From Bacteroidales bacterium (lineage in GTDB: Bacteria > Bacteroidota > Bacteroidia > Bacteroidales > VadinHA17): a DNA stretch of 64,000 bases. Each line of letters opens with the position of its first letter. Within the stretch, counting starts at the first letter, position 1. Made by a program: the position numbers and the translations under genes. The DNA is taken from assembly GCA_003141895.1 (NCBI GenBank), contig PLNT01000011.1:47112-111111 (forward strand), written 5' to 3'. Under the pieces are notes generated by a model. The model did no database searches. It saw only the letters and a program-made list of their open reading frames with translations, and had not been told where the DNA came from. This document shows positions 19,124 to 23,865 of the stretch, piece after piece.

Positions 19124-19489
19124 ATGGCAGAATCGCATAATCTGGGACAAAAAGGTGAAGACCTCGCAGCAGATCATCTGAAAAAGGCAGGTTACAAAAT
19201 CCTCTTTCGAAACTGGAAATGGGGTAATAAGGAAATCGATATCATTGCAGAAAATCAGGAATTTATCGTATTCGCCGAAGTAAAAACCAGGAGCGAAGAT
19301 TTTCTGATGGCGCCCGTTACTGCAATTACCAGAGAAAAACGAAGAACGCTGATCTTAGCTGCCAACGGATATCTTCAAAGATACGGAATTGATAAAGAAA
19401 GCCGGTTTGATATAATTACAGTTATCCAGACTGCTGATTCTTATAAGCTTGATCATATTGAAGGGGCATTTTATCCGACACTGAGGTAA
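19124..19489 (+). CDS. YraN family protein (UPF0102, endonuclease-like fold)
   Basis: 121 residues, the typical size. The pattern GQKGEDLAADHLKKAGY, then WGNKEIDIIA and FAEVKTR, is the family signature. It corresponds to the PD-(D/E)xK nuclease core with Glu, Asp and the ExK triad. The cellular role of the family is not well established; a DNA-processing function is inferred from the fold. A palindromic repeat precedes it, and a YjbR-like gene follows 125 bases later. Confidence 0.88.
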   Translation: MAESHNLGQKGEDLAADHLKKAGYKILFRNWKWGNKEIDIIAENQEFIVFAEVKTRSEDFLMAPVTAITREKRRTLILAANGYLQRYGIDKESRFDIITVIQTADSYKLDHIEGAFYPTLR

Positions 19490-19494
19490 AAGTT

Positions 19495-19590
19495 TAGAGT
19501 GCCTAAAGTTTGGAATGCCTAAAGTTAAAAAAACATCCAAACCATATTTAATCACTCTAGGCACTTTAGACACTCTAGACACTTATTTTA
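19495..19590. repeat. short inverted repeat between yraN and yjbR-like genes
   Basis: Two left modules (GAGTGCCTAAAGTTT and AATGCCTAAAGTT) face right modules (CTAGGCACTTTAG and ACACTCTAGACACTT). RNA from either strand could fold into a hairpin. It resembles a transcription pause or a small dispersed palindrome. Confidence 0.45.
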
Positions 19591-19614
19591 AATAATTGAT
19601 TAAAATTAATTTCA

Positions 19615-19935
19615 ATGGACATAGTAACACTCAGGGACTATTGTATCTCAAAAAAAGGATCTACCGAATCCTTTCCATTTGGTGATGACACACTCGTTTT
19701 TAAAGTTAACGGGAAAATATTTGCCCTTGTAAACCTTGATGGTGATCTTAGTATAAACCTTAAATGTGATCCTTCTCTGGCAATTGAACTCAGGGAGAGA
19801 TATTCTTCGGTTACACCCGGATACCATATGAATAAGACGCACTGGAATACTGTTTTAATCGATGGCTCAGTTCCGGATAAAGAAGTGCTTTCGTGGGTTG
19901 ATCATTCTTATGACCTGATTGTAGGGAAGCATTGA
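19615..19935 (+). CDS. MmcQ/YjbR family DNA-binding-like protein
   Basis: 106 residues of the YjbR fold. Visible family features are GSTESFPFGDDTLVFKVNGK, a central NLKCDPSLAIELRE, and the C-terminal PGYHMNKTHWNTV with VPDKEVLSWVDHSYDLI. The family has a CyaY-like fold and is annotated as DNA-binding; its biological role is unclear. The last 35 codons are present again as a detached, diverged copy at 22491-22598, about 2.6 kb downstream, with foreign-looking genes in between. This gene itself looks intact. Confidence 0.85.
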   Translation: MDIVTLRDYCISKKGSTESFPFGDDTLVFKVNGKIFALVNLDGDLSINLKCDPSLAIELRERYSSVTPGYHMNKTHWNTVLIDGSVPDKEVLSWVDHSYDLIVGKH

Positions 19936-20091
19936 ATTCCCAGGTTTCTTTCTTCAAAGAATCAAATTAATAATTACTCTGTTAGTCAAAATAAGGCCAT
20001 GTTGGATAACTTTCTGAGGGTTACTCATTTTATAACCTTCTACCCATGGAAATAATATAGTGTATTATTTAATTGTATTTATGGACCTTTC

Positions 20092-20135
20092 TTCGGATTT
20101 GGGTGGTCAATTTAATCCGGCCAGGTTTGCCCAAG
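20092..20135. repeat. 44-base direct repeat, left copy (insertion-sequence-end-like)
   Basis: Begins TTCGGATTTGGGTGGTCAAT. It aligns without gaps to 21837-21880, in the same orientation, at about 32 of 44 positions by hand count. The GGTGGTCAATTT...CCGG wording resembles the multiple terminal repeats of IS21-family elements; that link is from memory and is inference. The two copies bracket the STAS/ATPase gene. Confidence 0.55.
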
Positions 20136-20207
20136 GTTGTTGGCTCTTCCAATTTAGTGCTACTTATAGTGATTCAAATAGAGTTACAAGTGCTAATAAA
20201 AAAAGAA

Positions 20208-20231
20208 GGACTCCTGTAAATCCAAGAGTCC
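20208..20231 (-). terminator. probable rho-independent terminator
   Basis: A six-base stem (GGACTC/GAGTCC) around a 12-base loop is followed by T-rich sequence on both strands. It most likely ends transcription of the minus-strand gene whose stop is at 20361, about 130 bases upstream of the hairpin. Confidence 0.5.
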
Positions 20232-20360
20232 GTTTTATTATTGTCACGTCTTTAAAAACTAGTTTAAAGACTAAAGAAATTCATCTTAATGGTGCAAATG
20301 TAATATTTCCTAGTTAATTACACAATAAAGGTACCACTTATTTCTTAATTATATCTATAA

Positions 20361-21623
20361 TTAGATGTTCCCAAGTCTTTTTTTTAAAGAAGATTCAAAA
20401 ATGAGCTGAATACTTTTATTCATATTAACAATTTGGAAAATGGATTGGAATTGATAAAACCCAATTTCATCGATTAATTTTCCTATCAATTCATCCGCAA
20501 ATGAGGAAGAAATTATCCCGACATCAGCAAAATCAATGAAAATTTTGGACTTATTAGCATTGTAAATATTTATTAGTTCATTTTTCATAAGTAATCCGGA
20601 TTCTCTTGTTCCCGTGCCTGAGCCAACATCCGCAATTCTATAAATTATTTCCCCGAAATCTCCTATCATGTTTTCAATGAACATGTCAGTTACATAGTTC
20701 CCGTGTAAGGCATCTTTTAAGGAAATTTCTTTGTCCAAGTTTAAGCTAAAGGAAATGGTTGTGGATTGGTTGATCCTATTCAAAATAACAATTTCATTAC
20801 TTGTTTTGGCAATTTTCCCATGCTTTGAGAAGAATACACCCCCCTTTGCCGATATGATAGATAGATTGCCTTCATTTTGTGAAGTAATATTAAAAAGCCC
20901 CCAAAGCCCATTACCTTGTCCAATCTTTTTATCTCTTGTAACACCTTCCTTTATACAAAGAGCAATAGCATCTACTGCTGATTTAGGTTTGAAAGTTGAT
21001 TTTAAAAGCGTTTTGTAGATACCATAGCCATAATCATATATACAAACATTTAAACGATTACTTTTTTTATCAAGTTGGGCCAAGACAAAACCCTTACCCA
21101 TACCAGAGTGTTGAATTACGTTATCCATTACCTCGTTAGTGGCCCAAATAACACCGTTAATAACCCCCTCTTTACAGACAATAGTTCTTCTTAAAGAAGA
21201 GGTAAAAGATGTTACTAACTGGTTAATCTCATCAGAATTAGAGAATGTCCAAATTTTATCTAGAGTATTTGTTAAACGACCAATACTTGCATCAGATACC
21301 TGTTTGGGGCTGTTGAAATTTGAGTGCCTGAGATAACTATTAAGATTCATAAACTTAAATTGAACACCTTCTTTCTCCTTAAAATAATTGATTACCCCTA
21401 CTATAGGTACTGTTGGGATTGGACTTACATGTCTTACATTGGAACAATCAATAATTATTTCTTTATGATTGAATTTGTAAACCAACCTTTGAATTGAAGT
21501 AATGAATTCAAGTACCAAATGTTGGTTGGTAAGATTACCAGGTATAATAATATTGTCCTCAATAATTGAATTGAATTTCTTAATATAATTTCTCTTGGAA
21601 TCTTGTGGTTCATTTGAAACCAT
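20361..21623 (-). CDS. STAS-like / GHKL ATPase / STAS-like (DUF4325) fusion protein
   Basis: 420 residues. Residues ~30-95 look like a STAS-type fold (HKEIIIDCSNVRHVSP). Residues ~150-270 form a GHKL ATP-binding domain with an N box (ATNEVMDNVIQHSG), a G1 box (IYDYGYGIY) and a G2-like GQGNGLWGLF. Residues ~300-420 match the STAS-like DUF4325 pattern, with FIDFADVGIISSSFADELIG. There is no His-phosphorylation helix, receiver or transmembrane segment, so it is not a standard histidine kinase. It is more like an anti-sigma-factor-type kinase joined to its own STAS partner domains. It stands alone between two 44-base direct repeats and has AT-rich, foreign-looking codon use. The function is unknown. 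Confidence 0.7.
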   Translation of the reverse strand: MVSNEPQDSKRNYIKKFNSIIEDNIIIPGNLTNQHLVLEFITSIQRLVYKFNHKEIIIDCSNVRHVSPIPTVPIVGVINYFKEKEGVQFKFMNLNSYLRHSNFNSPKQVSDASIGRLTNTLDKIWTFSNSDEINQLVTSFTSSLRRTIVCKEGVINGVIWATNEVMDNVIQHSGMGKGFVLAQLDKKSNRLNVCIYDYGYGIYKTLLKSTFKPKSAVDAIALCIKEGVTRDKKIGQGNGLWGLFNITSQNEGNLSIISAKGGVFFSKHGKIAKTSNEIVILNRINQSTTISFSLNLDKEISLKDALHGNYVTDMFIENMIGDFGEIIYRIADVGSGTGTRESGLLMKNELINIYNANKSKIFIDFADVGIISSSFADELIGKLIDEIGFYQFQSIFQIVNMNKSIQLIFESSLKKRLGNI

Positions 21624-21993
21624 AATATGGACTAATTTGATATTATTTCAATCATACAAGTAGTTTAGTAATCTATGTTCATCAAATATACATAAGAAAG
21701 TTAAGGCTGACAAAGCGAACTATATAAGAGTAAGAACTGGGGTTAAAATTAGCTCTTGGATAATTAACCCTAAACTCTTAACCAATAGAAGGTCATCCCA
21801 CAATTAAAATGTGTGATTAAACGTCAAGTATTTTATTTCGGATTTTGGTAGTCAATTTACATTGGCCAACTATTGTCAAGCCCAATGTTTTTTCTTCATT
21901 ATGATTATTGTGTTTTAGAGTAAAGTATAGGTGTATATTTGAGATCTTTATAATAAATAAACTTTCATGTTGAAAATTAAAAAATTAAATTTT
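21624..21993. other. AT-rich spacer with repeat copy and promoter-like box
   Basis: It contains the start region of the minus-strand STAS gene, the right copy of the 44-base direct repeat (21837-21880), and TATATTTG at 21934-21941, which fits a Bacteroidota -7 box for the small HTH gene downstream. No gene is seen. Confidence 0.5.
21837..21880. repeat. 44-base direct repeat, right copy (insertion-sequence-end-like)
   Basis: Begins TTCGGATTTTGGTAGTCAAT. It matches the left copy at 20092-20135 without gaps at about 73% of positions; the first 9 bases are identical. The two copies are about 1.7 kb apart with the STAS/ATPase gene between them. Confidence 0.55.
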
Positions 21994-22221
21994 ATGAATA
22001 AAGCAGAGGAAAAGGAGGAGCTAACGCTACAGACTGTCCCCAAAGCAGTGAATTATCTAATAAATGAGATTGCAGAAATGCGTGTTTTGCTTGAGCGTGT
22101 CGAATCACAACTTGGACTTGGTGTCGACAAACACCGCCCTATTGGGATTGAAGATGCATGCAGAATATTAATTCAAACAAAAAATGGGCTCAATAAAATG
22201 ATCCGAAATAATTCAGCCTGA
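21994..22221 (+). CDS. small HTH_17/excisionase-like protein, apparently truncated
   Basis: 75 residues from the ATG at 21994; an in-frame ATG at 21967 would add nine lysine-rich residues. The layout matches Bacteroidota excisionase/MerR-type HTH proteins: LQTVPKAVNYLINEIAEM, then a coiled ERVESQL linker, then IGIEDACRILIQTKNGLNKM as the helix-turn-helix. In full-length relatives the recognition helix is followed by a beta wing of the type IPyykrGkklyF. Here the frame stops just after the helix, so the wing is missing. A promoter-like TATATTTG lies 53 bases upstream. It may be a decayed excisionase left by a mobile element. Confidence 0.5.
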   Translation: MNKAEEKEELTLQTVPKAVNYLINEIAEMRVLLERVESQLGLGVDKHRPIGIEDACRILIQTKNGLNKMIRNNSA

Positions 22222-22490
22222 ATGTCCTAAGAAAAATACTTGGGATTATTCAAATTATTCGAGTACTCCTCAGCCTTCATTTTGGTCAAATCCATACCGC
22301 AAATGGAGACAATGAAAGAAAGATCTATATTTGGGACTATTATTACAAAAGTGGACTCCTATTCGCCTTGACTTTGGTTCTGATTATTTGATTTACGAGC
22401 TATATAAAAATAATAAAACTACTTTTATTAATCTAATTTGTAATTATCTTCCTGAATTTCAAATATTTATATAGTATAGTTAAATATTAC
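22222..22490. other. AT-rich spacer, no gene recognised
   Basis: All frames are broken by stops. Fragments such as TTTTGGTCAAATCCATACCG at 22283-22302 faintly recall the 44-base repeats but the match is weak. It is probably decayed sequence at the edge of the scar region. Confidence 0.4.
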
Positions 22491-22598
22491 ATGAATAAGA
22501 AACATTGGAATACAATAAATCTTGATGGCAAAGTGCCTGATAAAGAGGTGTTTTCGTGGATCGATCATTCTTATGAACTAATTAAAGCAAGAAAGTAG
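22491..22598 (+). pseudogene. detached 3' fragment of a YjbR/MmcQ-like gene
   Basis: The 35-codon frame MNKKHWNT...VPDKEVFSWIDHSYEL followed by TAG aligns without gaps to the last 35 codons of the intact yjbR-like gene (19828-19935). By hand count about 77 of 108 bases and 23 of 35 residues are identical. The upstream two-thirds of the gene is absent. In intact family members this segment is the C-terminal end and the methionine is internal, so this is a remnant and not a small gene. It shows that the 2.5 kb between the two copies was inserted, duplicated or recombined. Confidence 0.8.
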
Positions 22599-22684
22599 CC
22601 TAAAGAATCAGAACTATTGAACTTCGAACAAAAATTCAAAATTCTTAATCTATTTGTCCAAATGTTCTTACTTCAAAAAACATC

Positions 22685-23734: not shown

Positions 23735-23865
23735 ATGAAAAGCCGTATAGTACTGGTCTTTATCCTGTCACTGGTCATTGCGCCATCGTTTTCGCAAAAA
23801 AAATCGCCATTATGATCAATAAAAACTCACTTCCTTCGTCAATAAAGACAAAACTCGGATTATAA
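23735..23865 (+). pseudogene. frameshifted, truncated secreted-protein remnant
   Basis: A good signal peptide, MKSRIVLVFILSLVIAPSFS, is followed by QKKSPL and a stop at 23815. The shift occurs in a run of eight A bases. One extra A would continue the frame as QKKIAIMINKNSL... to a stop at 23863-23865. The phrase IAIMINKNS resembles the mature N-terminus of phosphate-binding-protein-like (PstS-type) proteins, but the rest of such a protein is absent. I read it as a decayed gene start; a short secreted peptide is a less likely alternative. Confidence 0.45.

Follow-up and report, generated by a model that had tools for sequence, protein, structure and literature searches.

A detached yjbR 3' end as the probable attachment-site scar of an old serine-integrase element in a Bacteroidales genome

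The yjbR gene, its detached 3' end and the half-site before it

The stretch of DNA analysed here, a window of 64,000 nucleotides (nt) from contig PLNT01000011.1 of a Bacteroidales bacterium (assembly GCA_003141895.1), carries a full-length yjbR gene of 106 amino acids (aa) on the forward strand at 19615–19935 and, detached from it, a second copy of the 3' end of the same gene. Comparison of 19828–19935 with 22491–22598 gave 77 identical bases of 108 (71%) and 23 identical residues of 35 (66%), exactly the values that the initial annotation had counted for a repeat of the last 35 yjbR codons in the same orientation, and the ungapped repeat spans 19821–19920 and 22484–22583 (76% over 100 nt, same orientation, 2663 apart). 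The full gene and the 35-residue piece both pass the curated cut-off of the YjbR family PF04237 (8e-34 and 7.5e-10, respectively). In the 4.01-Mb genome these two are the sole matches at E ≤ 0.001, and chance was therefore excluded as the source of the repeat. The stretch common to both copies starts at the core ATGAATAAG, which is shared by the phage-side and gene-side halves of the attachment site described below, and the full gene holds an intact core resembling a bacterial attachment site (attB) at codons ~70–75. Within the genus, the yjbR of the window has 34 other full-length matches, 68–90% identical.

A survey of 62 genomes of this genus, drafts and bins of which many are fragmented, revealed a YjbR match in 39 and a total of seven detached 3' pieces that break near codon 70, distributed over six genomes: the piece in the window, one each in relatives G009, G024, G020 and G075, and two in G065. 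Between the full gene and the piece lies a nucleotidyltransferase/HepT pair in G009, an IS200-like transposase in G024 and a set of four genes in G020, among them a helix-turn-helix (HTH) gene and a gene of ~402 aa. Two matches at contig ends were left out of the seven, namely one on contig C5 of G020, which overlaps contig C202 by 141 identical bases, and one on contig C184 of G028, a yjbR with an internal deletion. The broken yjbR genes of G079 (two frames) and G001 (codons 1–46 only) and the proximal copy of G020 (internal deletion) were rejected as scars.

Directly ahead of the detached piece, on the forward strand at 22473–22495, lies a candidate P half-site of a serine integrase in the form of a right arm (AGTATA, 17 bp, then the core), followed by a TAAG core at 22496–22499; from the 23+4+23 layout of phage sites we infer that the crossover, and with it the boundary of the foreign DNA, falls inside this TAAG. 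The piece itself, with its own stop, would form the B' half of the right attachment site (attR) at 22500–22598 on the same strand, as indicated by the repeat, the Pfam match and the upstream motif, while its ATG at 22491 sits within the overlap of half-site and core. The motif [AG]GTAT[AT] stands exactly 27 bp ahead of AARCAYTGG in 7/7 detached pieces, and it was not found in the 60 bp before the core of any of 35 full yjbR genes. From positions −40 to −10 the seven pieces share a pairwise identity of 62% versus 37% in shuffles, a value that none of 1000 shuffles reached.

The half-site was also scored with a matrix built from 10 half-sites of integrase-bearing elements only, no scar included. 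Over both strands of the window, this matrix ranked 22473 first with 15.3 bits versus 11.2 bits for the next site, and the scars of G020, G009 and G024 each came first in their own locus; the two pieces of G065 ranked first and second in theirs, one of them having been in the matrix. Furthermore, 22464–22486 is 96% identical over 23 bases to an unsplit phage attachment site (attP) in G065. Judged by these features, 22473–22598 is most likely an attR in which a P half-site is fused to the gene half at the core. A left P' arm was not found in the inserts of the window, G020, G009 and G024, each of which holds only one half-site above 9 bits. No matching left attachment site (attL) with a P' half was found across the insert of the window, which holds a remnant rather than an intact element.

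The pattern of breaks also bears on two rival explanations. If the piece were an independent conserved small protein, a frame of 32–35 codons with ATG and stop should persist, and such a frame is indeed open in the window, G020, G009 and G024; however, two of the seven pieces (G065 piece 1 and G075) have no ATG and one carries an in-frame TAA, so that 3/7 lack a start or hold a stop, and we regard this reading as very unlikely. Tandem duplication of yjbR, with the second copy decaying afterwards, would account for two copies in the same orientation, and full paralogues do occur in other genera; the two 3' ends of G020 are nearly identical, and a second yjbR start lies at a contig end in G031. 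Against it, two full tandem copies were seen in none of the 62 genus genomes, many of them fragmented drafts (the second start of G031 is cut off by the contig end), the pieces share a single break codon preceded by a conserved motif that is absent from full genes, and the two ends are not sisters in the window or in G024 (see below), which leaves duplication and decay with hardly any probability. Both outcomes had been named in the initial annotation as ones that would overturn its proposal of an insertion or recombination scar.

A probable prophage, scars and insert-free sites in relatives

In G075, codons 1–74 of yjbR are followed at once by a palindrome arm. About 60 bp further lies the gene of a 564-aa large serine integrase, which has Resolvase, Recombinase and Zn-ribbon domains (Pfam) as well as a PHROG integrase match. 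Head, portal and terminase genes accompany the 3' half of yjbR on a second contig, and the usual neighbours of the locus are found on the outer sides of both contigs. By its gene content and neighbours, this locus of G075 reads as a prophage inside yjbR, provided that the two contigs are linked as we infer. The same break and arm occur in G065, a genome rated 6% contaminated, where, beyond a whole yjbR copy and the unsplit attP, a 63% identical integrase follows at a distance of 1.6 kb. Between attL and the unsplit attP of G065 (locus L084, 10265–11022 and 11494–11543) lie this whole yjbR, inverted, and an open reading frame (ORF) of 146 aa with no Pfam match. An attL is present in both genomes, and a scan of the genome contigs with the integrase alignment gave, among the matches listed, G075 and G065 only.

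The deduced attP reads AGTATA, 17 bp, TAAA, 17 bp, TATACT, with TTGA in the middle of the unsplit site of G065, and consists of inverted half-sites about a short core, the arms matching at 18/23 positions in the viral contigs L113 and L195 and at 16/23 in G065. Read by eye, attL and attR of G075 conform to the same geometry, and L113, a viral contig found by integrase similarity, shows the same attP layout before its integrase. Scanning viral contigs for AGTATA-17-TAAA-17-TATACT returned 47 stretches; in three of them (L161, L187 and L195) a 37–45% identical integrase starts 44–45 bp away, and as L161 is the same phage as L113, two of the integrase neighbours found by pattern are new. Weak recombinase matches (E 2e-4 or better) at ~1.4 and 7 kb from the pattern in L165 and L172 were not counted. 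YjbR-like genes are also present on the viral contigs L114 (1215–1553, 41%), where the gene is one among phage-like genes, and L115; at 41–42% identity they do not qualify as close relatives.

Sites without the insert complete the comparison. In four relatives of the same genus (G031, G019, G005 and G062) yjbR is directly followed by the gene of a predicted barrel protein, its neighbour beyond the insert in the window. The arrangement that the initial annotation had proposed to look for, a single yjbR adjoining both yraN and the barrel gene, stands on one contig in G019 and G062, while in G005 yraN is separated from yjbR by 2.4 kb of different DNA. Of the four cases, that of G031 is the least secure, since its contig starts 185 bp before the whole yjbR that adjoins the barrel gene (L070, 1–503), and yraN lies on another contig together with a second, different yjbR start (codons 1–55) that is ended by that contig's end (L069, 1–166).

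Searching the whole order, at least 23 genomes had several yjbR matches among the matches listed, including that of the window and G042, and 21 of these, searched again, held mostly full-length paralogues, with partial matches in G412 (49–104) and G091 (2–57). In G042, which belongs to another family, two full yjbR genes enclose three 5' pieces, all in one row and separated by cargo (L083, 6938–16512), and two of the three 5' pieces end after the codons HFNK and are followed by an inverted arm. This arm lies 18 bp, not 17, from the core by eye, and its matrix score is only 6.2, yet the first in its locus.

Taken together, the half-site before the piece, the insert-free relatives and the prophage at the same joint in G075 bear out the scar proposed at the outset, and we consider it highly probable, as far as sequence comparison can tell, that an old phage-type element with a serine integrase left the detached yjbR 3' end behind as its attR scar. 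The point inside yjbR is likely a natural docking site for mobile DNA.

Several observations weigh against this interpretation. Plain serine integration does not leave the proximal yjbR complete, and the window insert contains no integrase gene or P' arm by ORF analysis and the half-site matrix; the best integrase match in the genome, 32% identical, is on another contig. An integrase at yjbR was found in only two of the 62 genus genomes (G075 and G065), both of them drafts with the two ends on separate contigs, and at E 1e-60 in none of 393 genomes of the order, a search that had no positive control and shows little. Among the viral contigs, 44 of the 47 pattern stretches lack such an integrase next to the site and presumably arose by chance. 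We had already noticed the half-site of the window when we tested it, a circularity that only the integrase-only matrix avoids, and the margin of that matrix for the window half-site is modest: two of nine relatives without a piece hold sites of 13.3 and 13.7 bits in their loci, the others reaching at most 10.4, and one of the two is G077, with its site about 100 bp from the yjbR stop. This margin and the unsettled state of G031 temper our confidence in the scar explanation.

Insert contents and the origin of the two 3' ends

Between the two yjbR ends, the initial annotation had listed a STAS/ATPase gene, a truncated HTH gene and direct repeats, all of which proved to be real by ORF analysis, Pfam and repeat search. 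The left part of the insert (19936–20360) gave no match at E 0.05 in 44 fetched loci, and no left integrase arm was found in it. It is followed on the reverse strand by a cargo gene at 20361–21623, encoding a protein of 420 aa with a STAS-like DUF4325 (Pfam 4.2e-11) and a histidine-kinase-type ATPase. This protein matches the PADLOC model DrmA at 5.7e-29, covering 287 of 1750 model positions, which makes a relationship to part of a defence protein possible; it also matches phrog_3364 at 8.8e-28. A 32-nt direct repeat (20092–20123 and 21837–21868, 81%) lies on either side of the gene and resembles what we take to be end repeats of the IS21 family; a loose pattern of these repeats occurs at 7 places in the genome versus 2 for a reversed control.

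Further right, on the forward strand, the truncated HTH gene (21967–22221) encodes 84 aa versus 111 aa in its relative in the G020 insert, to which its DNA is 90% identical over 252 bp. Fused to it out of frame are the last codons of a ~402-aa gene (22209–22324, forward strand), identified by blastn against G020 at 71% over 125 columns, with 64% over 47 aa in translation, and ending in ...SFWSNPYRKWR; the region of this gene is about 1.2 kb shorter in the window than in G020. The right ends of the window and G020 inserts share the same order, comprising the HTH gene (90%), the end of the ~402-aa gene (71%) and attR with the piece (83%), and the HTH and ~402-aa genes are also paired elsewhere, in G081 and G018. 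Judged by these similarities, the cargo of the window most likely combines a STAS/ATPase gene, absent from the G020 insert, with a decayed relative of that insert.

Beyond the piece, the intergenic stretch at 22599–22684 is 76–77% similar to the yjbR–barrel intergenic stretch of G019 and G005 and also corresponds to a repeat present downstream of yjbR in G063, G020 and G009. Repeats of the kind GGCACTTTAGGCACTC occur at 19489–19600, between yraN and yjbR, and likewise in several relatives. At 23735–23815, a gene that is long in relatives, and which we assume by eye to be papain-like, retains only 26 codons before a stop, the next gene following at a short distance, and in G083 this next gene stands directly after yjbR.

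As a route to the present locus we propose that the large serine integrase of an element joined its DNA inside yjbR at codon ~70 at the core ATGAATAAR|AARCAYTGG, and that later losses would have removed the integrase together with the left arm and most of the element, leaving the decayed HTH and ~402-aa remnants. The STAS/ATPase gene, which the G020 insert lacks, would have come separately. The broken left half of yjbR would then have been made whole via homologous recombination with an intact yjbR; alternatively, the repair may have drawn on an element-borne yjbR copy such as that of G065, or the scarred segment may have recombined in beside an intact yjbR. Homologous recombination is preferred over a direct site-specific swap of 3' ends since attP × attB is reported to be the only pairing that serine integrases recombine (PMC3783163).

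To ask which 3' end is native, we compared both with relatives, using trees that are weakly resolved as they rest on 96 and 213 nt. The initial annotation had suggested that the element brought a replacement end, its attachment site being half phage arm and half yjbR end, and pushed the native end to the far side. For G024 this fits the trees, as its left-flank genes, 5' half and distal piece (95/84) go with G064, while its proximal 3' half groups with G060, the element-borne copy of G065 and G065 piece 1 (98/93); the right-flank gene of G024, however, is not closest to G064 (0.61, versus 0.67 for G062). Compared with the empty site of G017, the distal piece of G020 shows 3 mismatches in 108, and the agreement extends over the 27 bases that follow; but the proximal end matches G017 as well (0.99), up to its last codons, so that both ends of G020, nearly identical to each other, look native.

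The evidence from the window itself is mixed. Its two 3' ends fall in different supported pairs, the proximal half with G077 (98/88) and the piece with G031 (97/80), and judged from these trees a recent, simple duplication on the spot does not explain the two ends; together with the resemblance of the DNA after the piece to the intergenic stretch of G019 and G005, this speaks for a replacement end. Against it, the proximal 3' end is nearer to those of the closest relatives G062/G034 (0.84/0.85 versus 0.79/0.76 for the piece) and tracks the flank genes better (rho.63–.68 versus.42–.48), its stop region resembles G031 by eye, and the approximately unbiased (AU) test does not reject G077 as the partner of the window 5' half (p 0.33). 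No attP of hybrid form was seen, and pairings of this kind are reported not to recombine (PMC3783163). Plain serine integration of the type in G075 breaks yjbR and supplies no replacement end. We regard this detail of the initial proposal as rather less likely than not. As to which copy is native, the nearest relatives favour the proximal end, and the DNA after the piece looks native, though it is a repeat.

If, instead, homologous recombination set a donor segment with cargo, attR and a foreign 3' piece beside an intact yjbR, the piece would never have been native. The proximal 3' end being nearer to the ends of the nearest relatives agrees with this, and the repeat downstream of yjbR in five relatives offers the homology required; on the other side stand the likeness of the DNA after the piece to yjbR–barrel intergenic DNA, though that stretch is a repeat, and the distal piece of G024, which looks native. 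We deem such a donor segment somewhat unlikely.

A further idea, which we rate as improbable, treats yjbR codon 70 as a cassette dock, with small integrase-less elements moving through half-sites of a phage integrase acting in trans. The nucleotidyltransferase/HepT pair, the IS200-like transposase and the HTH and ~402-aa pair would then be such elements, and, just as doubtfully, yjbR copies or 3' ends brought by elements would mend the broken gene while restoring attB for whichever element came next. Hints in this direction are the attL of G065 with its small segment, whole yjbR and unsplit attP by the integrase, and the five yjbR copies or pieces of G042. Overall, we favour the attR scar of an old serine-integrase element, beside which the proximal gene may have been repaired later.

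Comparison with known systems

Prophages with large serine integrases that interrupt a protein gene are known from A118 in comK, SPbeta in spsM and the skin element in sigK. The elements at yjbR share with them the integrase domains, an attP of inverted half-sites about a short core, and a host gene that is split at one point and uninterrupted in relatives. They differ in their target, yjbR, and in their host, a genus with two named members that are both 'Bacteroidales bacterium' bins, and in that the window holds only the right scar beside a whole gene. Elements that integrate at a 3' end and carry a replacement end, such as e14 in icd, use tyrosine integrases. The window resembles this type in having a whole gene on one side, a detached 3' end on the far side and cargo between, but here the recombinase is a serine integrase and attP is without long gene homology. 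In the literature searched for yjbR or MmcQ with integration site, integrase or prophage, as far as the texts were accessible, no report of yjbR as a target was found; the event itself is of a known kind.

With this, the genus probably gains an integration hotspot with a readable signature (the half-site AGTATA, 17 bp and the core), one that allows sequence-only searches for old scars and for cargo left by lost phages. The serine integrase family, with its deducible attP, attB, attL and attR, might be put to use as a genetic tool in a group that has received little study, and the G065 element seems to carry a whole spare copy of the very gene that it breaks. The locus also has parallels in two published reports. 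Like the grounded prophages described as hotspots of gene renewal (PMC6379469), it combines a decayed prophage end with shifting cargo at one place, although the evidence here consists mainly of attachment-site scars. As in the hotspot of PMC7641849, mobile and defence genes gather near a YjbR-domain gene; there they lie adjacent to it and a transposon-type mechanism is implied, whereas here the point of entry lies inside a stand-alone yjbR.

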